DNA of 64,000 bases from Kordiimonas aquimaris (GTDB taxonomy: Bacteria; Pseudomonadota; Alphaproteobacteria; Sphingomonadales; Kordiimonadaceae). Shown in pieces: positions 53,818-64,000 of the stretch (position 1 is the first letter of the stretch; the number at the start of each line of letters is the position of its first letter). Location: assembly GCF_025574485.1 (NCBI RefSeq), contig NZ_JAOBPO010000003.1, positions 163,867 through 227,866 of the forward strand, written 5' to 3'. The notes beneath the pieces are model-generated. The model had not been told where the DNA came from. It made no database searches and worked only from the letters and a program-made list of their open reading frames with translations. The translations under genes and the position numbers were made by a program.

Positions 53818-54942
53818 TTAACCCGATGCACTTAATGAACGCGGGTCAAACGTAACTGATTTAACGAGTGCATAAACGGCTTGACCTGTCGCCAATGAAA
53901 GATCATTGGCGGCAGAGCGCGTTATTTGGGCACGTATTTTTTCACCATCTACATCAATGACAGCATCAACAAACGCTGTACCTTCGATTACCTCGAGGGC
54001 AATGAGTTTTCCGCTCAAAACATTTCTTATACTGATATGTTCAGGTCGCTCAGTAGCAAGTGAAACATCGCTGGATTTCACTAAAACACGTACCTCTGTA
54101 CCTGTAGCCGCATTAACATATGGAACGGAGATAGACTGGCTCCCAAACTTGAGCTCTGTCATATGCATAGTTTTGTCATGCGTGTTAATTGTAGCCTCAA
54201 TGATCGCGCCAATATTTCCGTGATCTGCAATATCATTGAAGTTTAGTCGCTCTAATACCTCAGCAGTAGGCCCTTGGTTAACGACACGACCATTTGCCAT
54301 CATGACAACCTGATCAGCAATCCGAGCAACCTCCGCCATATCATGGCTGACATATAGCATCGGCACTTTCAATGTTTGATGCAACCGATCAAGGTAAGGT
54401 AAAATGTCGTCTTTGGTTTGCTGATCAAGGCCAGACAATGGCTCATCCATAAGCAACAGAGCGGGGTGGGCTAAAAGCGCTCGTCCCATCGCAACACGTT
54501 GACGCTCACCGCCAGACAAAGCTGTAGGAAAACGCTCAAGTAAGTTCTTCAATCCAAATAAAGAAATAACTTCTGGAATAGATGGTGATTTCTCTTCTTC
54601 GTTAGTCAACTTTCTTCTTGAGAAAAGCGTCCCAAACAAAAGATTGTCGCGCACGCTTAAATGCGGGAAAAGGCTCGCTTCCTGAAACACATACCCGACC
54701 GAACGCTTATGTGTTGGCATATGGCTAGAAGCCTCGCTATCTTGCCATATATTGCCGCGCACTGATATTCTTCCCGGATACCCTTCCAATCCCGCAATGC
54801 ATCGTAGCACGGTGGTTTTTCCACACCCTGAGGGGCCCAATAAAGCGGTAACACCATTGGCCGGGACAGTAAAATTACAGTTTAGCTCAAACGCACCAAT
54901 GCGCCCGGCAAGTGAAACATCAATCTCACTGTGATTACCCAT
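53818..54942 (-). CDS. modC: ModC, molybdate ABC transporter ATPase
   Basis: The product of 374 aa has an ABC ATPase domain with Walker [15 protein letters not shown], signature [17 protein letters not shown], Walker [15 protein letters not shown] and the switch His in [15 protein letters not shown]-terminal Mop/TOBE domain ([29 protein letters not shown]) binds molybdate and regulates transport. The start at MGNHSEID overlaps modB by eight bases; the longer frame is rejected as it lies in modB. It supplies molybdate for the MoaC/MoeA pathway at the other end of the window. Confidence 0.95.
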
Positions 54943-55624
54943 TATTACGGTTTGTCCTAATACGGTTTTGCTGCAACATAACGATAAGAATGACAATAAA
55001 GGCAAATAACAACATGCCGGCCGACAGGATATGTGCGCTTACCCACTCTAAATTTTCAACATATTCGTATATTGCAACAGACAGTACTCTTGTTTCACCG
55101 GGGATATTACCACCAATCATCAGAACCATACCAAATTCACCAATAGTATGAGCAAAACCAAGCACCGCCCCTGTAATAATACCAGGACGGGCAAGGGGTA
55201 GGGCAACGTGCCAAAAAACCTGCCAAGGCGATGCCCTTAAGGTAGCAGCCACTTCCAGTGGCCTGTCACCAACAGCTTCAAATGCATTACGGATTGGTTG
55301 CACAACAAAAGGCATAGAATAAATAACAGACCCAATCACTAACCCCTCAAACGTAAAGGCAAGTGAACGCATACCAGTTACGCTTGACAGCCAACCACCG
55401 GCACCATCAGGCCCAAGAGCAATTAACATGTAAAAACCCAGTACAGTTGGCGGCAGCACGAGAGGCAGGGCCACGATTGTAGCGACAACTTCTCGCCAAA
55501 TTGCTCGAGAACGCGCCAACCACCAAGCAATCGGAACACCAATCAACAACAAAATAATAGTCGTCGCGAATGCAAGCTGCAATGTAAGCTGAATAGGTGG
55601 CCAAAATATAAGTAACTCATTCAT
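54935..55624 (-). CDS. modB: ModB, molybdate ABC transporter permease
   Basis: The 229-aa product has five to six membrane segments and the ModB/CysT-type permease loop [42 protein letters not shown], which contacts the ATPase, and the N-terminal motif [11 protein letters not shown]. It is between modA (five bases upstream) and modC (overlapping). Confidence 0.95.
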
Positions 55625-55629
55625 AAGTG

Positions 55630-56427
55630 TTACTTTGCCTGCAGATCGACATCATAACCATATTTTTTTATGAGCATGCCAGCTTTTGAACTCTTGAGGA
55701 AATGCAGGAATTCACTTGCCGTAGCATTTAGACGGCCATGTTCCAGTAAAACAAAATCTTGAGCAATTGGTGTATAATGAGTTTGGGGAACACGCCAAAT
55801 CGTGGTTGCCGGCCTATTAATAACTTGAGCCAAAGCAACCAAGCCAACATCAGCATTTCCTGTTTCTACAAACTGGTAGGCCTGTGCAATGTTGGCACCG
55901 CGCACTAAAAGAGGCTCTGTTTGCGAGAGTAAATCCAAACTCTTCAACACCTGAATTGCAGCAGCACCGTATGGGGCAGTGTTTGGATTAGCAATCGCAA
56001 GTCGTTGATATTTAATATCCGTTAAACTAGTAGCATTAATCTCGCTACTACTGTTGGCGGAATAAAGTGCAAGTTTCCCATAAGCGTATGTATATTGGCT
56101 ATTTTTGACTGCGAGACCATGCTGGGAGAGCAACAAAGGACGCATCTGATCTGCAGCCAAAAACACATCAAAAGGGGCGCCTTGTGTGATTTGGTTATAG
56201 AGTTGGCCAGTAGAAGCTGCACTTAAGATCACACTATGATTAGTTTCACGCTCAAACTGTATTTTTATATCTTGGGCAGGTTTTAAAAAATTTGAAGCAA
56301 CAGCAACATGTACGGTGTCAGCGGCCACAGGTAATGAAGCATAAGCGAAACACATACTCACAATGACCAACGAGATAAGCCAGTGTGCTTTATTTAATTG
56401 GTTGAATACCTTGAGGATGCGTTTCAT
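55630..56427 (-). CDS. modA: ModA, periplasmic molybdate-binding protein
   Basis: The product of 265 aa has a signal peptide ([36 protein letters not shown]) and the ModA fold: [65 protein letters not shown] and [15 protein letters not shown], with the Ser residues that bind the oxyanion. It is the first gene of modABC. The start is uncertain: an ATG 12 codons upstream exists, but the downstream one gives a normal signal peptide. Confidence 0.94.
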
Positions 56428-56500
56428 ACTTTCGCCGATAATGTGCGCATCAATAAATGTCAAACATATTGAGCTCGATTGAACATGCCTAGTCTACAAA

Positions 56501-59055: not shown

Positions 59056-59517
59056 CTACTTGGAATATATTTTATGCGTATAATTTATATGCGAAGAACC
59101 CTGCATGTCCGGCTGTACCGCGTTTGTACTAGCGTGTACTGGACTATCTGGAATAGCAGAAAAACCAACCGCCACACACATCATCATAGCAGCACCAGCA
59201 GTGGCCTGACGCGCTTGCTGTAGGTGCTTTCTCATGGTGGCATAAACGGATGCAGTTGCGGCATCATTGGCACGCTCCGCACGCCATTCACCGAGATCAA
59301 TTAACGCTTGCTCAACATCTTTCCCTGCCAGCTCTGCCAATCGGATCATAGTTGCGTCTTTTCGGGGCAAACTCTTACCTAATCGCCACCCACATATTGT
59401 TGCTGGTGGTTCACCAATCCTTAAGCACAATTGCCGGTCAGAAGGAAGGTTTTGCTTCCTTAAGGCCGCATCTAAATACTCAGTGATACCGATGCGTTTA
59501 AATTCAATGTTCGACAT
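59056..59517 (-). CDS. Phage HTH regulator with C-terminal membrane segment
   Basis: The product of 153 aa begins MSNIEFKRIGITEYLDAALRKQ. It has a Cro/CI-like helix-turn-helix at residues about 10-60 (DRQLCLRIGEPPATICGWRLGKSLPRKDATMIRLAELAGKDVEQALIDLGEWR), a linker, and a hydrophobic segment near residues 107-122 (AGAAMMMCVAVGFSAI). The latter resembles small phage repressors with membrane tails. The start is chosen because upstream frame residues lack DNA-binding features and include the promoter. It reads away from the initiator gene, and operators overlap its own promoter, so it is probably the phage repressor. Confidence 0.75.
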   Translation of the reverse strand: MSNIEFKRIGITEYLDAALRKQNLPSDRQLCLRIGEPPATICGWRLGKSLPRKDATMIRLAELAGKDVEQALIDLGEWRAERANDAATASVYATMRKHLQQARQATAGAAMMMCVAVGFSAIPDSPVHASTNAVQPDMQGSSHINYTHKIYSK

Positions 59518-59534
59518 ACTTAAATCCCCGTTTC

Positions 59535-59573
59535 TATCCTTAAGGATATAACACCAGTTATCCTTAACGACAA
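59535..59573 (-). promoter_or_regulatory. Repressor promoter overlapped by CCTTAAGG operators
   Basis: A perfect 14-base palindrome TATCCTTAAGGATA (59535-59548) lies 18 bases from the repressor start codon. On the minus strand, TTGTCG at 59573-59568 and TTATAT at 59551-59546, spaced 16 bases, resemble a sigma-70 promoter. The palindrome covers its start point and a half-site TATCCTTAA (59559-59567) lies in the spacer. This layout implies autorepression. A near copy occurs at 62723-62736 upstream of the structural genes. Confidence 0.65.
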
Positions 59574-59656
59574 GTGAACAAAGTTTTGCTACCAAATATA
59601 GCTCAAATGCACGCATTAAAAACAATATCTTGACAATCACACAATATTTAGTGTTT

Positions 59657-59691
59657 GTTCGGGTCACTCGAACTATTCGAGACACTCGAAC
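59657..59691. promoter_or_regulatory. 35-bp dyad of CACTCGAAC-type half-sites
   Basis: The stretch from GTTCGGGTC to GACACTCGAAC is an imperfect inverted repeat around an A/T centre, with three visible TCGAA-type half-sites. It lies between the repressor gene and the initiator gene and about 65 bases before the initiator start. A good TTGACA hexamer is at 59630-59635, but no good -10 follows. It is a candidate operator for a second regulator or for the initiator promoter. Confidence 0.5.
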
Positions 59692-59756
59692 ACACCTTCC
59701 GTGACCTATCCCCGGCACGGAAGGTGTTCTCTGGGGAACGGGGATCAGGATCAAAT

Positions 59757-60548
59757 ATGCTCAGGCATGACGTGATCATTCCAATATCAAGATCAACCTT
59801 AAGGGGTTCCGTTAAAGGCGTCCTTATGGCCATTGCAATCCGCACATATGACACAGACGAAGAAGCACACCTCACAGTAGGCACGCTTGGTAAAGAGGCT
59901 GGCTATAGCCCTCGCACCACTCAAGAAGCGGTCATAAAGCTTGAGGAAATGGGCCTCATTACTGTGCGGCGCGGATGGGGGCGCGGTGCTTACAACATCT
60001 ATGAAATGGTGCTCGAAAAGGTGCGAAATCTGCACCCTTATGATGCACCAGAGCAAAAAAATTTGGTCGATGAAAAAGGTGCGAAATCCTCCGTAAAAGG
60101 TGCGAAATCCTCCGTAAAAGGTGCGAAATCTGCACCCTACAATATAAATAATATAAATAATAAACGCGTGACGCACGCGCACGCGAGGAAAATGCCGCCG
60201 CGCACCGGACCTCACGGCCCTGCGGCGAAACATCAAAAGAGAAGAAAAAAGGAACCCGCTGTTAACCGTGGCGCTGCCACGGGCGGGGTGATGCCGAAAT
60301 TCAGTGAAGCCACCAGCAGCGAGGCGCGAGAGATGTGGAGCAATTGTCTTCAGGGGAAGACAGCCGACTTTCGCATACCAGAAAGCGCAACATTAGGCCC
60401 GATAGAGGGTGGCACAGCAAAGATTTTCGATCTGACGCCGTTTCAGCAAGACCAGATCGCACAGAATGGCCGTGTAGAGATTGTTACCAAGCTCTCACGA
60501 CTTACCGGGGACAAAATCAACCTTGTTATGATGGAGAAAGCATCGTGA
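59757..60548 (+). CDS. Phage replication initiator, winged-helix protein with intragenic iterons
   Basis: The product of 263 aa has an N-terminal winged-helix domain at residues 10-75: ISRSTLRGSVKGVLMAIAIRTYDTDEEAHLTVGTLGKEAGYSPRTTQEAVIKLEEMGLITVRRG. This is the typical replisome-organiser or plasmid-initiator fold. A repeated GAKSSVK linker (residues about 106-128) follows, then a basic part (HQKRRKKEP) and a C-terminal domain (ATSSEAREMWSNCLQ; KLSRLTGDKINLVM). The ATG at 59757 has AGGA seven bases before it and is the first that keeps the helix before the HTH. The function as initiator is inferred from the fold and from the iterons inside the gene. Confidence 0.7.
   Translation: MLRHDVIIPISRSTLRGSVKGVLMAIAIRTYDTDEEAHLTVGTLGKEAGYSPRTTQEAVIKLEEMGLITVRRGWGRGAYNIYEMVLEKVRNLHPYDAPEQKNLVDEKGAKSSVKGAKSSVKGAKSAPYNINNINNKRVTHAHARKMPPRTGPHGPAAKHQKRRKKEPAVNRGAATGGVMPKFSEATSSEAREMWSNCLQGKTADFRIPESATLGPIEGGTAKIFDLTPFQQDQIAQNGRVEIVTKLSRLTGDKINLVMMEKAS
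60016..60138 (+). repeat. Four iterons inside the initiator gene, candidate origin
   Basis: The 15-mer AAAAGGTGCGAAATC occurs exactly at 60016-60030, 60074-60088, 60095-60109 and 60116-60130. The last three are spaced 21 bases, two DNA turns. The first and last copies extend in identical fashion to 23 bases, where GGTGC and GCACC form an inverted pair around a seven-base centre. The repeats cause the GAKSSVK repeats in the protein, and they stop directly before an A/T-only block. Phage lambda has its iterons inside the O gene in the same way. Confidence 0.7.
60141..60164. other. 24-base A/T-only block, candidate DNA-unwinding element
   Basis: Directly after the last iteron lies a 24-base stretch with no G or C, made of two copies of AATATAAAT and an AATAAA end. 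It is followed by the GC-rich CGCGTGACGCACGCGC. It encodes an Asn/Ile-rich linker of the initiator protein. Iterons next to a tandem A/T block are the usual layout of a replication origin, where the duplex first opens; function here is inferred. Confidence 0.6.
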
Positions 60549-60805
60549 AACCCGATAAGAAACCACCACCTACACTGACCGAGTTGCTCGCTGTGCGAAG
60601 CGCCATTTGGGATGACATGTTCCAGATGAATGACCTTGGCCGTGACAGTGACAAAATGATGAACTCGTTTTTTCAAACTTGTTTTGCCATTGATGACATG
60701 TTGGCCGTTCAAATTAAATCCGCCAACGCCGCCGCCAAATGGCTCAAGGAAGAAATTGCCATGCTGAATGCCAAACTGGAAGACATGCAGGAGGTGCAGT
60801 CATGA
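60545..60805 (+). CDS. Small phage protein of unknown function
   Basis: The product of 86 aa starts at GTG, overlapping the initiator stop as GTGA, with GGAG nine bases upstream. It reads LTELLAVRSAIWDDMFQMNDLGRDSDKMMNSFFQTCFAIDDMLAVQI and ends in LKEEIAMLNAKLEDMQEVQS, an all-helical, probably coiled-coil protein. I do not recognise a family. Its TGA overlaps the next ATG. Position in the early or replication block suggests a DNA-metabolism accessory, which is inference. Confidence 0.65.
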   Translation: MKPDKKPPPTLTELLAVRSAIWDDMFQMNDLGRDSDKMMNSFFQTCFAIDDMLAVQIKSANAAAKWLKEEIAMLNAKLEDMQEVQS

Positions 60806-61227
60806 GCATTGAGCCAAGAACTGTCATAGGTGAGGTGAAATGCCCGTTTTGTGGTTCCGCCGCCGAAGCAATGGTCGGCGCACAGAAGGGCAATCGCACC
60901 GTTATGGCATGCCCGCGTGGATGCCGTGGCACCGCTGGTGCCTTCCCTGACCGTGACCTTAAACAAGATTATCTGGACGCAACGTCCGAAACCGAAAGAG
61001 AAGACCATGAGCAAGACACCGTTGAAAGTGAAGAAACTGGCGCGGAAATCGCAGCCGAAAGCGAAGCAGCCTCAGAAGGCGAAACCGGAACCAGTGAAAA
61101 CACCGGAACAGACGCCTGCAGCATCGCCGGAAATGACGATACCAGATGTAGCGAAGATACCGCCGGAGCCAGAGAACAAGTCAACAAGCCAGCCAGAAGA
61201 AAGTGGGGAAGCGGTAAACGGGTCTGA
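60802..61227 (+). CDS. Phage zinc-ribbon protein with acidic tail
   Basis: The product of 141 aa has a zinc ribbon at residues 13-41 (KCPFCGSAAEAMVGAQKGNRTVMACPRGCRG: CxxC and CxxxC), followed by an acidic Glu/Ser/Thr-rich tail (SEEDHEQD-like; ESEAASEGETGTSENTG) and a basic end (KPARRKWGSGKRV). It overlaps the preceding gene by ATGA, with AGGAGG before its ATG. From 61007 the DNA is shared, in another frame, with the next gene. Zinc ribbons of this type bind nucleic acid or proteins; function unknown. Confidence 0.65.
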   Translation: MSIEPRTVIGEVKCPFCGSAAEAMVGAQKGNRTVMACPRGCRGTAGAFPDRDLKQDYLDATSETEREDHEQDTVESEETGAEIAAESEAASEGETGTSENTGTDACSIAGNDDTRCSEDTAGAREQVNKPARRKWGSGKRV

Positions 61228-61717
61228 AAACGAAGCGTTCACACCTGATTTTGACGATAGTGAACCGCTTGAAGGTGAAGTCCTTAAGCCCGGTGAAAAA
61301 TCTGAGGAAGAACTCAGGCAGGAAGCCGAAGAAAAAGCCGAGCACGATGCTTACACTTTGGAAACCGACCCGCTCAAAGATGCTTTCTATGGTGTTATGT
61401 GTGCTGTATCGAACCAAGCCGCGAAAATTGCTGGACAGCGTATCCCTATGGGCGAGCCGATCGCTGCCATGCAATTGAAAAACCGTGGTGCTGTTGGTCG
61501 CATGGCGTCTGATCAGGTGTTTGATAAGCTTTGGAAAACGGCTGAATTTATGCGCGCCACACTCCGCAAACTGAAGCACGCTAACAAGCTCAAGCAGGAG
61601 TGGGGTGCCATATGGTTGCTGATGGTGGAAATGGCAGAGGAAACCATCAAGGAAGTAAATGCCCGCCAAGCAGCTTACGCTGAACAGCAGGAAGCACAGC
61701 AACAGGAGGCCGCGTAA
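61007..61717 (+). CDS. Phage protein with basic Pro/Lys/Glu-rich N-terminus, unknown function
   Basis: The product of 236 aa starts inside the zinc-ribbon gene in the +1-shifted frame, with a GAGAAG site before ATG. Residues 1-75 are a Lys/Pro/Glu-rich low-complexity region (MSKTPLKVKKLARKSQPKAK). The rest is a helical domain (DPLKDAFYGVMCAVSNQAAKIAGQRIPMGEPIAAMQLKNRG; KLWKTAEFMRATLRKLKHANKLKQEWGAIWLLMVEMAEE) that ends in a Gln/Glu/Ala tail. No family recognised. The end carries AGGAGG, which could serve a following plus-strand start at 61717. Confidence 0.65.
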   Translation: MSKTPLKVKKLARKSQPKAKQPQKAKPEPVKTPEQTPAASPEMTIPDVAKIPPEPENKSTSQPEESGEAVNGSENEAFTPDFDDSEPLEGEVLKPGEKSEEELRQEAEEKAEHDAYTLETDPLKDAFYGVMCAVSNQAAKIAGQRIPMGEPIAAMQLKNRGAVGRMASDQVFDKLWKTAEFMRATLRKLKHANKLKQEWGAIWLLMVEMAEETIKEVNARQAAYAEQQEAQQQEAA

Positions 61718-61719
61718 TG

Positions 61720-61896
61720 TTACCTTCTGACATAGTCCAGCAAAGGTTCGATGTTGTAGCCGCCAACAATCAACAGTGCGATTACAATCGCAATTACAAC
61801 GCTGCCGGGCGCTTCAAAACTAAACTTAACAGGGGATTTCATTGGGTCGTTCTCCAGCTTGAAAATATAAAATCGCTCGCTGAGAACGTTAGCCAT
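61720..61896 (-). CDS. Possible antisense one-helix membrane protein
   Basis: On the minus strand a 58-aa frame reads MANVLSERFYIFKLENDPMK and has one strong membrane helix (GSVVIAIVIALLIVGGY) with a short tail NIEPLLDYVRR. AAAGGG stands eight bases before its ATG and GGAG stands before an internal ATG (61842). The plus strand also has an open frame (61717-61983) with a good AGGAGG, but that product is Asn/Gln/Cys-rich as an antisense of hydrophobic codons would be. Which strand is used is not settled; small membrane proteins are expected in this phage type. Confidence 0.4.
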   Translation of the reverse strand: MANVLSERFYIFKLENDPMKSPVKFSFEAPGSVVIAIVIALLIVGGYNIEPLLDYVRR

Positions 61897-61924
61897 AAAG
61901 TCACCCTTTGGGGTGCTTGTCAAT

Positions 61925-61970
61925 TACCATTAATGGTATGTGCACGGTATTTTATCCACAGGTGGATAAA
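61925..61970. promoter_or_regulatory. Palindrome and DnaA-box dyad upstream of the packaging ATPase gene
   Basis: A perfect 14-base palindrome TACCATTAATGGTA (61925-61938) is followed by a 20-base dyad (61951-61970) with nine-base arms TTTATCCAC and GTGGATAAA. The left arm contains TTATCCACA (61952-61960), an exact DnaA-box consensus, and the right arm a near match on the other strand. The AGGTGG ribosome-binding site of the ATPase lies in the dyad. Possible roles are an operator, a DnaA-dependent control site or a hairpin that occludes the start. Confidence 0.55.
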
Positions 61971-61972
61971 TC

Positions 61973-62662
61973 ATGATGACTGAAGCAGAGCACACCATCA
62001 TTGTCGGCGTTACTGGTGGCGGCAAGACGACATTGGCGGAAGGGCTGACAAAGCATTGCCGCCGTATCATCGTGTTAACCACCAAGCCTAAAGCCAAGTG
62101 TTTCACCAAGGGCTATCATGAGGCGCGCAAATCTGTTGATGTGCTGAAGTACATCAAACGCAACTGGAACAGCAAGAAGGGCTTTCGCATCGTCTGGCGT
62201 GTGTTTTCCGAACCGGGCGACAACAACAAACAGATCAAGGCACTTGATTGGATTTGCCGAAACCTCTGGAAATGGCAGCAAGGTTATGCTGATGAAAAAG
62301 ACAATCGCCAGATCGTTCTGAATGTTGATGAGGTGCAGCGTTTCTTCCCGCATTCCGAGGCACAGAAAGGCCACGCCTTTACGTGGGCAGTGTCTGAGGG
62401 CAGGGATTGGGGAATAAACTTGCTAGTGGGTACACAGCGGCCCGTTAACATTCATCCGATCTTTAGAGATAACATCACCAATTTTTATTCCTTACGGCTC
62501 TCTGGTGATGCCACGTTCAAAAAGGTGAATGAGAATGTCGGCGGCGACCATATGGCACGCCTTAAAGCGATTAAGCAGTTCCATTATGCTTACTTCCGCG
62601 ACAAGGCATACATCGCTACAAACAACACGAGAAAACCGACAATCAATCGGGCTTTTCCATAA
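61973..62662 (+). CDS. Phage genome-packaging ATPase (A32/FtsK-HerA type)
   Basis: The 229-aa P-loop ATPase has Walker A GVTGGGKT at residues 12-19, Walker B IVLNVDE at 114-120 and a TQRP sensor motif at 154-157, with an arrangement like the packaging ATPases of double-jelly-roll viruses (PM2 P9, PRD1 P9). It would translocate DNA into a preformed capsid lined by membrane. It lacks nuclease or large-terminase domains. A Zot-like ATPase of filamentous phages is the main alternative, but the capsid-like gene downstream argues against it. ATGs at 61973 and 61976 are both possible. Confidence 0.78.
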   Translation: MMTEAEHTIIVGVTGGGKTTLAEGLTKHCRRIIVLTTKPKAKCFTKGYHEARKSVDVLKYIKRNWNSKKGFRIVWRVFSEPGDNNKQIKALDWICRNLWKWQQGYADEKDNRQIVLNVDEVQRFFPHSEAQKGHAFTWAVSEGRDWGINLLVGTQRPVNIHPIFRDNITNFYSLRLSGDATFKKVNENVGGDHMARLKAIKQFHYAYFRDKAYIATNNTRKPTINRAFP

Positions 62663-62676
62663 GCATCGCCAAACAC

Positions 62677-62701
62677 GGCGAGGGGTGATTCGCTCCTCGC
62701 C
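62677..62701 (+). terminator. GC-rich hairpin after the packaging ATPase gene
   Basis: GGCGAGG (62677-62683) pairs with CCTCGCC (62695-62701), extended by one wobble and one GC pair. It begins 15 bases after the ATPase stop and has no U run, so it may be a weak terminator, attenuator or mRNA-stabilising hairpin between the ATPase and the structural genes. Confidence 0.45.
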
Positions 62702-62722
62702 AGCTATAACGAGGCTCAAAAT

Positions 62723-62736
62723 TATCCTTAAGGTTA
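62723..62736. promoter_or_regulatory. Second CCTTAAGG operator, upstream of the structural genes
   Basis: TATCCTTAAGGTTA differs in one position from the perfect palindrome at the repressor promoter (59535-59548). It lies in the 150-base gap between the ATPase and the small membrane-protein genes, where a promoter for the structural operon would be expected. It is therefore a candidate second binding site of the HTH repressor, linking lysogeny and capsid gene expression. Confidence 0.5.
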
Positions 62737-62812
62737 TTTGTCCTAAATTTGACAGCCTGCCTCAAATCTGAGTCTCATGAAGCCTGTTTAACGCAAGGCG
62801 AAAATCGACCTC

Positions 62813-62923
62813 ATGAGCAAATATTTAGACGCAAAAATTATCATATCTGGCCTCACTGTGTCGTTGCTCGCCTTTGCTGCAATCGAAACTTACAAACACA
62901 TCAAAGGACAGAACAATGGATAG
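62813..62923 (+). CDS. One-helix phage membrane protein (36 aa)
   Basis: The 36-aa product MSKYLDAKIIISGLTVSLLA begins a single membrane helix (IIISGLTVSLLAFAAIETY) and ends HIKGQNNG, with basic C-terminal residues. It is too short for most gene finders. It overlaps the next gene by eight bases in another frame, which supports coupled translation. Small one-helix proteins in the inner membrane are typical of PM2-like virions. The ribosome-binding site is weak. Confidence 0.55.
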   Translation: MSKYLDAKIIISGLTVSLLAFAAIETYKHIKGQNNG

Positions 62924-63032
62924 GGCTATAGAGTTCACATTTCTTGTTGGCGCAGCCGCAACCGCATTTATCGCGGTGTCGTATGCCGCTAAAAAATGGC
63001 CGAATGCGCCGCTCATCAAGTACGTGGCATAA
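62916..63032 (+). CDS. One-helix phage membrane protein (38 aa)
   Basis: The 38-aa product starts MDRAIEFTFLVGAAATAFIA and has one membrane helix (FTFLVGAAATAFIAVSYAA) with a basic C-terminal end (KKWPNAPLIKYVA). AGGA lies seven bases before the ATG. It overlaps the preceding gene and is followed by the capsid gene after 12 bases. It is a likely membrane-associated virion protein. Confidence 0.6.
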   Translation: MDRAIEFTFLVGAAATAFIAVSYAAKKWPNAPLIKYVA

Positions 63033-63044
63033 GGGGTAAAAATC

Positions 63045-63878
63045 ATGCGGTTTGTTGTCCCTAATAACACCGAGTTTTACAATGTCAGTGCGCAGGCTGG
63101 TACGGCGAATATGACGCTACCAGCGGCAAATCATGCGCTGAACCAGATCGATCTGATCTATACGCTAAATGGCACCCGCGCCACGGAAGCGGAGATGATC
63201 GCAGACATTGACGAAATCGAACTTAAAATTGGTGGCACGACACAGCGCCGCTTTACACCAGCACAGCTATTCACGCTTGAGAAGTTGCGAGGTCAAACTG
63301 TCAAAGCAGGGCGCTTGCCTATCCGCTTTACGCAGCCGGAACGCCGCACTGACATCGGCGAAGATCGCACGATCATCTTCCTGAATGAAATCGGGCAAGT
63401 CACCATTGATGTGAAACTCAACGCGCAGGCAACAGCCCGCAAGTTGATCGCACGTCACGTTTCGACGCCGCTTGTTGCTGCTGACCTAAAGCAGCCCAAT
63501 CAAGGCAGCATCATCACGTACAAAAAGAAAAACGTGCTGATCGACAGTGATGGTGAAAACGAAGCCACCTTCATACAGTTACAAGGTCGTGCATTCCATA
63601 CATTCCACGCATTCAGCGCTGATATTACATCGCTCAAAGTGTATCTGGACCAACTCCTGATATGGGATTTTGTCGACAAGCAACATCTGGATGATCTGCT
63701 TGAAGACAATGCTTACGTACCGCAGGCGGACGTATGGTCATTTGGCGGCGAACTGCTTTCATCCCGCTATGTTGACGCAATGGTTTCAGGCGACAGCGTT
63801 TTGCGCTGGGAGTTTGAAATGGACGCAGCTAACAGCTTTGACGTTCTTATCGAAGAACTTGGATCACCTAAGAGGTAA
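63045..63878 (+). CDS. Candidate double-jelly-roll major capsid protein (PM2 P2-like)
   Basis: The 277-aa product has no signal peptide and is beta-rich throughout. Residues 20-100 follow the order I recall from PM2 P2: NMTLPAANHALNQIDLIYTLNG, then a strand DIDEIELKIGGT, then a helix TPAQLFTLEKLRGQTVKAG and a strand ending IRFTQPERR. The later part has a second strand-rich half with QGRAFHTFHAFSADITSL and VLRWEFEMDAANSFDVLIEELG at the C-terminus. P2 is about 270 aa. The start has AAGGGG upstream. The assignment rests on pattern and gene context, not on an alignment search. Confidence 0.68.
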   Translation: MRFVVPNNTEFYNVSAQAGTANMTLPAANHALNQIDLIYTLNGTRATEAEMIADIDEIELKIGGTTQRRFTPAQLFTLEKLRGQTVKAGRLPIRFTQPERRTDIGEDRTIIFLNEIGQVTIDVKLNAQATARKLIARHVSTPLVAADLKQPNQGSIITYKKKNVLIDSDGENEATFIQLQGRAFHTFHAFSADITSLKVYLDQLLIWDFVDKQHLDDLLEDNAYVPQADVWSFGGELLSSRYVDAMVSGDSVLRWEFEMDAANSFDVLIEELGSPKR

Positions 63879-63883
63879 AAACC

Positions 63884-64000
63884 ATGTCATTCGTAGCACC
63901 GGGACTAGCAGCCTACAATGAACAACAGCAATCTGCCGCTCAACCATCGGGCGGCGGGTTCTTCGGTCGCCTGCTTGACGGTGCCGGACAGATTGGGCTG
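63884..64000 (+). CDS. Phage structural-region protein, truncated by the window end
   Basis: An ATG with AGAGGT seven bases upstream begins MSFVAPGLAAYNEQQQSAAQ, followed by a Gly/Ser-rich part (PSGGGFFGRLLDGAGQIGL) that runs off the window after 39 codons. The start is five bases after the capsid gene stop, so it belongs to the same structural operon. Product unknown; a membrane or minor capsid protein is likely from position. Confidence 0.6.
   Translation, partial: MSFVAPGLAAYNEQQQSAAQPSGGGFFGRLLDGAGQIGL

Follow-up and report, generated by a model that had tools for sequence, protein, structure and literature searches.

The right edge of a 64,000-nucleotide stretch of the Kordiimonas aquimaris genome (the window) holds the left part of an 11.2-kb prophage, the remaining 6.3 kb of which lies past that edge. 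The element runs from a half attachment (att) site at 59068-59090 (L002 435-457) to position 234162 of contig C20 (70296 in window numbering); L002 is C20:222500-242400 of the 3.8-Mb genome (G000), and a window position equals the L002 position plus 58633. It carries homologs of the P2 capsid protein and the P9 packaging ATPase of phage PM2, a set of iterons, and two att sites, and it lies at the replication terminus. With high confidence, it is regarded as a temperate phage of the order Vinavirales that has no tail, probably has an internal membrane, and is integrated at the host dif site. An earlier note, made from the letters of the window and its open reading frames (ORFs), had placed a corticovirus-like tailless prophage here; its coordinates were right at the left end and, at the right, were cut by the window.

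Gene content and replication module

A double-jelly-roll major capsid protein (MCP) homologous to P2, a P9-type ATPase, the gene order, and the lack of recognized tail, portal, or terminase genes place the element in Vinavirales (Table 1; there is some overlap between ORFs, and small genes have uncertain starts). The MCP scores 42.0 bits with Pfam P2_N and 45.3 bits with P2_C, against a cut-off of 25 for both, and the profile of its family matches PM2 P2 (95.9% for alignment A1 in the profile comparison) as well as 9t9v. A single-sequence structure model is weak (mean predicted local distance difference test score, pLDDT, 48), yet it appears to match the jelly rolls of PRD1, PR772, and PM2 P2; the predicted similarity covers approximately residues 6-146, the N-terminal half only, and PM2 P2 is not among the 50 Foldseek matches listed. 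The PHROG family matched by the ATPase is labeled 'terminase large subunit' (positions 318-535 of 555), but profile comparison favors P9, the family alignment (A2) reaching 97.7% with the PM2 protein and 99.1% with that of phage Jorvik. Pfam and PHROGs, each scanned with 20 element ORFs, gave no convincing match to a tail, portal, or terminase gene, the weak ones being a tail-fiber domain in the methyltransferase (E 0.022) and a terminase small subunit in the helix-turn-helix (HTH) protein (E 0.09). A phage satellite, a gene transfer agent, and a tailed phage were considered and dropped, because genes for them were not recognized. In a side-by-side comparison, partly by position only, the gene order parallels that of PM2: initiator, ATPase, P7, P2, membrane proteins, P1, and lysin.

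Table 1. Features of the K. aquimaris prophage (window positions unless given on L002 or C20)
Feature	Position	Strand	Basis or remark
Repressor/regulator, 153 aa from ATG (232 aa if from TTG 59754)	59056..59517	-	phrog_638
attL, half-dif at repressor end: XerC arm and center TTTATA, XerD side degenerate	59068..59090	+	direct repeat
Palindrome TTAAGGATA-N10-TATCCTTAA, candidate operator	59540..59567		between divergent repressor and initiator genes
O-like winged-helix replication initiator, 263 aa from ATG (297 aa from TTG 59655)	59757..60548	+	
Four iterons AAAAGGTGCGAAATC inside initiator gene	60016..60138 (60016, 60074, 60095, 60116)	+	last three 21 bp apart
A+T-rich element, candidate unwinding element	60139..60164	+	25/26 A/T; directly 3' of iterons
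Small protein, 86 aa from GTG, at PM2 P13 place	60545..60805	+	ORF, position; no family match (156-aa reading)
Zinc-ribbon-like protein, 141 aa, at PM2 P14 place	60802..61227	+	CPFC and CPRGC cysteines; position; family matches all below cut-off
236-aa protein at ORF-h place, upstream of ATPase	61007..61717	+	position only; start uncertain, overlaps preceding ORF
FtsK/A32-like packaging ATPase (P9)	61973..62662	+	P-loop; phrog_2666 E 8e-17
52-aa one-helix membrane protein at P7 place	62874..63032	+	hydropathy 1.81; between ATPase and MCP
MCP, PM2 P2 family, double jelly roll, 277 aa	63045..63878	+	P2_N/P2_C
112-aa membrane protein at P3 place, start in window	63884..64000 (L002 5251-5589)	+	ORF; hydropathy; homologs in G051A, G051B
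97-aa ORF	L002 5526-5819		
182-aa ORF	L002 5829-6377		
217-aa protein at spike (P1) place	L002 6374-7027		
SleB hydrolase at P5 place	L002 7151-7612		Hydrolase_2 E 1e-20, above cut-off
Further late ORFs	L002 7612-7842; 7964-8131		
Holin-like protein, weakly supported	L002 8005-8589		GTA_holin_3TM E 0.046, below cut-off
Terminator-like hairpin	L002 8733-8753		
Cargo block: three ORFs (176, 99, 192 aa)	L002 8979-10325		
D12-class adenine methyltransferase, in cargo block	L002 10296-11057	-	E 1.4e-6, above cut-off
HTH gene, in cargo block, adjoining dif	L002 11020-11523	-	HTH_23 E 2e-9, above cut-off
Complete dif at right end of element	C20:234137-234162 (L002 11638-11663; window numbering 70271-70296)		pairs with attL

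At the left end of the element, the repressor matches a transcriptional regulator family (E 4e-17, 232-aa reading) and has homologs at the same end in all nine relatives compared. Its 3' end runs through attL (59056-59090), so that its last residues are chromosome-coded in the lysogen. The initiator matches phrog_678 ('replication initiation O-like'), 391, 1032, and 270 (E 2e-8 to 1e-5, 297-aa reading) and reaches Pfam HTH_36 at E 2e-4, below the cut-off of that family. Within its gene, one 15-mer occurs four times without mismatch; no 15-mer occurred more than twice in 500 Markov shuffles, and further copies with at most one mismatch were not found on the plus strand of the window, to which the scan was limited. 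The 26 bp that follow are the richest in A+T of the in-window part of the element, tied with an overlapping stretch one base earlier. In phage lambda, the gene of the winged-helix initiator O itself contains iterons and an A+T-rich element (ori-lambda), and the O-like gene likewise holds iterons and then an A+T-rich element. By this analogy, the element appears to start its own replication in the lambda manner. A rolling-circle initiator was not recognized in the element, nor was any ORF of the size of the Rep proteins of its relatives (379-559 aa).

The repressor, winged-helix initiator, A32-type ATPase, 277-aa double-jelly-roll-like capsid protein, and iterons of the earlier note are all borne out, as is its view of a tailless, internal-membrane phage with a replication module unlike that of PM2. 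Its one-helix membrane proteins, given in the plural, reduce to one small ORF in the window, recognized by hydropathy only. Neither of the two outcomes that it named as counting against it was seen: the MCP model appears to match double-jelly-roll capsid proteins over its N-terminal half, the profile searches passed P2_N and P2_C and aligned the ATPase family to P9, and extension to the right reached a spike-place protein, the SleB lysis gene, and the dif end site, with no tail or terminase gene recognized in the 20 element ORFs scanned per library.

Among the late genes, the spike-place protein has phmmer homologs in six of nine relatives and aligns with P1 of PM2 and Jorvik at below 1% in hhalign. 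The strong PHROG match of the holin-like protein is to family 6637, which has no assigned function, and searches of Pfam, PHROGs, and PADLOC gave no family above threshold for the three cargo ORFs. Between the late-operon hairpin and the cargo block lies a perfect 17-bp inverted repeat whose arms are 93 nt apart (L002:8831-8957). The D12-class methyltransferase is common only to the G071 prophage among nine relatives compared.

The att sites and the chromosome terminus

The att site at the repressor end differs from dif by one mismatch in the XerC arm, none in the center, and six in the XerD arm, and the site at the opposite end is complete. With two mismatches allowed, the dif pattern TTCGCATAANNNNNNTTATGNNAAAT is found once in the K. 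aquimaris genome, at the right end of the element; with one mismatch, it occurs in 5 of 18 same-genus genomes. A 24-bp dif core (at most three mismatches) is present in 22 of 29 genomes, including 15 of the 18 from the genus, and is single-copy in 13 of those 15, with a count of 0 for a reversed-pattern control; the three same-genus genomes that do not have it are 76-93% complete.

Strand composition also places the element at the terminus. In 20 samples of 20 kb from contig C20, the FtsK-guiding motif KOPS (GGGNAGGG) lies on the plus strand in 11 of 11 occurrences left of the element and on the minus strand in 25 of 25 to its right. GC skew likewise changes sign: 6 of 7 left samples have positive values, all 13 right samples have negative ones, and 23 kb left of dif the value is already slightly below zero. 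The same KOPS switch occurs at the dif of an element-free genome, G008 (18 plus and 0 minus vs 0 plus and 16 minus within 190 kb), and in two complete genomes, G008 and G013, the distance from dnaA to dif is 61-63% of the circle.

No integrase or other recombinase was recognized in the element, and contig C20 has no Phage_integrase gene. The genome has three such genes, one scoring better with XerD (321.9 bits against a cut-off of 329.6) and one with XerC (303.9 bits against 335.15). With no recognized recombinase of its own, dif-like att sites, and a location at dif, the element fits an Xer-exploiting integrative element (IMEX).

Left of the prophage, a molybdate-type ABC transporter operon (ATPase, permease, and binding protein, assigned by eye) occupies 53818-56463 on the minus strand.

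Related prophages and two att polarities

A P2-like capsid gene is present in 2 of 19 same-genus genomes, those of K. aquimaris and G009. P2_N matched in 8 of 98 genomes of a draw of relatives, in 10 of the 385 drawn from the class, and in 8 of the 396 drawn from the order (the same eight), and the A1 profile matched in 11 of 385 of the class, 3 of 32 in the family of G051, and 6 of 40 in the order of G106; these counts include K. aquimaris where it was drawn. Peptide-pattern scans with the K. aquimaris MCP, alignment A3, or the MCPs of L021 and L032 (viral contigs), or with A3 and A4 (genome contigs), found no relatives, and four short viral contigs matched by a SleB query were not used. By tblastn in phages, the MCP found none at 0.01, and the ATPase found Jorvik only (E 0.02).

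The relatives read comprise 23 prophages or fragments from 22 genomes (L019-L026, L031-L040, and L087-L091, with a pair in G051 counted apart), G333, a broken frame in the A1 matches of the class, not being among them. Both ends were placed in 14 of the 23, and in 15 of 24 with the K. aquimaris element. Excluded from the att count were L019, L023, and L033, with one site only (weak in L033); L087, with a half-site only and its late end off the contig; L031, with an ambiguous pair; and L036, L037, L038, and L040 (contigs of 10.7, 11.5, 4.4, and 13.0 kb), with no site above shuffles.

In all 15 placed elements, the dif-like site that scores best across the locus, above the maximum of five simple shuffles, is the one at the late-operon end, with at most two mismatches per arm in 14 (the exception, G201, has three in the C arm); this location of the full site is not affected by circularity. 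Half-sites were sought via the kept arm and center, making the following counts partly circular: the repressor-end site has one good arm (at most two mismatches) and one degenerate arm (three to seven), the centers are identical between ends in 14 of 15 elements, and the phage-borne arm is XerC-type in eight and XerD-type in seven. That dif is rebuilt at the late-gene end in every placed element, though the phage-borne arm differs, is the less expected result.

These patterns can be read as two mirror-image half-dif attP types in use by tailless phages, a proposal for and against which the odds appear even. In both types, the kept arm would lie on the late-operon side, dif would be rebuilt beyond the late genes, and the prophage would be co-oriented with the replication fork and with KOPS. 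The C-type, with an XerC arm as in this element, would enter from the XerC side of dif and the D-type, with an XerD arm (7 of 15, plus the putative site of PM2), from the other side, and both types could stack on one dif. Two limits hold confidence at this level: no more than 15 of 24 elements had both ends placed, and circularity enters in part into that placement. Of the new results, the strongest are the exact location of the element at dif and the pair of mirror-image att types. In the portions of the literature covered (PMC5357621, PMC9966536, PMC5894146, PMC12451628, and PMC9765430), an XerD-side half-site is not among the types described, which is not proof of its absence.

The putative PM2 site, at 747(-), is a clear half that keeps the XerD side and scores 16.1 of a maximum of 20.1; the sequence of a dif-like site in PM2 has been published (PMC9966536). 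In the same scan, NO16 gave a weaker site (15.8), and VruC (13.6) and Jorvik (12.5) gave none standing out. The scan misses the annotated attP of Jorvik, which reads by eye as an XerC-side half-site.

Genome G051 holds two prophages (L021 and L022; G051:C1:1832500-1861900) back to back in opposite orientation, with one shared dif between them. Identity between the two is 94.1% across 6.3 kb of late genes and 99.7% across 0.6 kb, whereas rep, the HTH gene, and most of the repressor end, att site included, are different; one is C-type and the other D-type. G051 is probably the Paremcibacter congregatus of PMC9502842, because its pair fits the published description (near-identical except for replication genes). 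In the portion of that paper covered, the description does not mention the att change between siblings.

KOPS inside the elements point toward rather than away from dif by 19:1 in ten elements, 10:0 in five added later, and 29:1 in all 15. Markov simulations of the first ten gave a mean of 7.3 and a maximum of 15 toward dif in 200 runs. For 55 other motifs of the same make-up, the combined ratio is 463:125 toward dif, with one motif reaching 16:1, and the KOPS bias is only suggestive.

A regulator-like ORF occupies the P15 place in all 15 elements and has a blastp partner at 0.01 in 13 (none in G197 and G201), HTH families having been tested on the K. aquimaris protein alone. That this late-end gene might be a polarity-specific Xer factor was suggested by phmmer and by the G051 pair. 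The tree of 15 late-end proteins did not support it: polarity changes four times, against a figure of 5.3 for shuffles, of which 103 and 107 of 500 gave a count as low.

In G009, the dif beside the L019 prophage (contig C52) differs from the same-genus dif on contig C194; the assembly has 360 contigs, 76% completeness, and 4% contamination, and C52 may be foreign or a second replicon. The L025 element (G020) is 14.8 kb long and has, from the spike place onward, a 924-aa ORF that may encode a fiber, and the G027 element is 15.9 kb long.

Activity, classification, and known systems

Several observations weigh against the reading of the element as a dif-integrated phage with a lambda-type origin. 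An empty-site allele with the same flanks was not found: the neighbors of dif differ in the four element-free relatives compared, which share with this locus the 25-28 bp dif alone, so that the case for insertion is made by the att pair together with the signals of the terminus. KOPS polarity in G008 is mixed or reversed in three samples taken over 1.2 Mb to the left of dif, and the host XerC-like and XerD-like genes score below the curated cut-offs of those models. The spike-place and ORF-h-place proteins have no significant profile match to their PM2 counterparts, and for the latter, hhalign to the ORF-h of relatives is likewise not significant (0.67%), with no Pfam match. The initiator call draws on PHROG matches with a best E of 2e-8, and its structure model (pLDDT 36) is unusable. 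Family scans of the ORFs after rep did not recognize a P-like helicase loader, a feature of the lambda-type origin.

The same prophage might be a defective or domesticated remnant that can no longer excise or form particles, an alternative that overlaps the preferred reading, differs from it only on activity, and seems possible but doubtful. The six mismatches in the XerD arm of attL would suit a remnant, and other Xer-exploiting elements (the gonococcal genomic island and CTX) are described as stably trapped (PMC5357621, in the part covered). Against this, the genes for Rep, the ATPase, the MCP, the spike-place protein, and lysis and both regulatory genes are ORFs without internal stops, and the half-site pattern is normal for the group, because it is seen in all 15 placed elements. 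Integration by a non-Xer enzyme, whether a transposase or an integrase acting in trans, is very unlikely. Some Vinavirales carry IS630-type transposases or integrases, and tailless Vibrio prophages at dif regularly come with integrases (PMC9502842 and PMC11630473, as far as covered); the genome has a third tyrosine recombinase, at C1:634104, and L037 and L040, two of the nine excluded relatives, gave no dif-like site above shuffles. Yet the dif center is common to both ends of an element with no recognized recombinase, the right end is the only dif match of the genome and lies at the terminus, and the same geometry recurs in 14 other elements.

The winged-helix protein could instead be a regulator, with replication driven by a host factor or by an unrecognized rolling-circle protein. 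Its E-values are moderate, and no homolog was found by phmmer at 0.01 in 8 relative loci or 9 relative elements, or by tblastn at 1e-3 in 50,697 phage or 72,556 plasmid records. Among the 15 Rep-place proteins tested from the 23 relatives, 11 (7 of 10 and 4 of 5) match a rolling-circle Pfam family at E<0.01 (Rep_1, Rep_trans, or GPA; 5 of the 11 above the curated cut-off), and none has a winged-helix match. This alternative is nevertheless judged unlikely: the gene occupies the initiator place, its best PHROG matches are initiators, no ORF has the Rep size of relatives, and the order of intragenic iterons and A+T-rich element is that of lambda O. Still harder to sustain is a true corticovirus (Corticoviridae) with a swapped replicase, which the match of gene order to PM2 would favor; the capsid tree separates the element from PM2, NO16, and VruC, and a SleB hydrolase stands at the P5 place.

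For the preferred reading, a temperate Vinavirales phage using the host Xer system, we infer the following life cycle. The circular phage genome would carry a half-dif (XerC arm and center, with a degenerate XerD side) between the late-end HTH gene and the repressor, and host XerC/XerD would recombine it with the chromosomal dif. Integration would leave the half-site at the repressor end and rebuild a complete dif at the late end; chromosome-dimer resolution would be kept because of this rebuilt site. The repressor may silence the early region through the candidate operator that separates its gene from rep. Upon induction, the O-like protein would bind the iterons in its own gene, open the adjoining A+T-rich stretch, and then load the host helicase for theta replication. 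The late operon would make the P2 capsid protein, membrane proteins, and P9 packaging ATPase, with lysis by the SleB hydrolase and the holin-like protein. The element may still be active.

The element is filed as a Vinavirales prophage that is clade A-like and not a corticovirus, a kind of virus already known. The 'corticovirus' of the earlier note, taken strictly, does not hold: the element has no recognized P12-type rolling-circle initiator, has SleB in place of the P5 lysin, and has a capsid protein that does not group with that of PM2. As to the chimeric, possibly undescribed lineage that it envisaged, the replication module does differ from that of PM2. In the MCP tree, the protein and those of seven same-order prophages lie on one side of a branch with 100/99 support, and PM2, NO16, VruC, an autolykivirus, a V. 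cyclitrophicus tailless phage, Jorvik, and ten alphaproteobacterial rows, including G009 (a doubtful contig), lie on the other. Several long branches (2.78 for Jorvik) make the deeper order of this tree, which does not include YY, unsure.

The likeness to clade A lies in the alphaproteobacterial host, of the same order as G051, in the SleB-superfamily hydrolase at the P5 place, and, more tentatively, in the HTH regulator at the P15 place. As described in the covered part of Yutin et al. 2022 (PMC9502842), this clade includes two Paremcibacter congregatus prophages, and SleB, TR_Z1, exchanged replicases, and DnaD-like winged-helix initiators are reported. Integration is called unclear there, whereas the present element lies at dif and has a lambda O-like gene with internal iterons. 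Its dif position bears on a question left open in that paper, the insertion route of clade A prophages that lack an integrase. For such phages, exchange of replicases, winged-helix initiators, and integration at dif have all been published (PMC9502842, PMC10589892, and PMC9966536), the last having been proposed for Jorvik (PMC10589892) and NO16 (PMC9966536), and some tailless Vibrio prophages lie at dif (PMC11630473). The element adds a lineage of tailless prophages that is uncultured, specific to the order, and equipped with a lambda-like origin; the att survey yields a testable prediction on the acceptance of two opposite half-sites by Xer recombination and on the reason for the orientation of such prophages toward dif.

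The closest named phages share parts of this architecture. PM2 (Pseudoalteromonas phage, Corticoviridae) has the same gene order from initiator to lysin, with P2, P9, and a P7-place protein, but differs in its rolling-circle P12 initiator, its P5 lysin, and a putative dif site that keeps the XerD side. A survey of 13 PM2-like prophages (PMC1950889) reported four replication systems and circular genomes linearized between genes XV and XVI, a point that corresponds to the att place here. Jorvik (Rhodobacter phage, Mestraviridae; PMC10589892 and PMC12451628) shares the P2/P9/P7 module, the lack of a predicted integrase, a dif-like attP according to its authors, and a short replicase (212 aa) that is not PM2-type. 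Unlike the element, it has an inverted ATPase operon, M15 and Slt lysins, and a replicase like the P1 lytic replication protein, and its capsid falls outside the group of the element in the tree, with the reservation that the branches are long. NO16 (Vibrio phage, Asemoviridae; PMC9966536) is likewise tailless and temperate, with proposed XerCD integration at dif-like sites and no use of the word integrase in the text of its paper, but its host is gammaproteobacterial and its capsid lies across the 100/99 branch. TLC-phi and the gonococcal genomic island (PMC5357621), although unrelated types of element, resemble it in att structure, having an attP with a good XerC side and center and a divergent XerD side.

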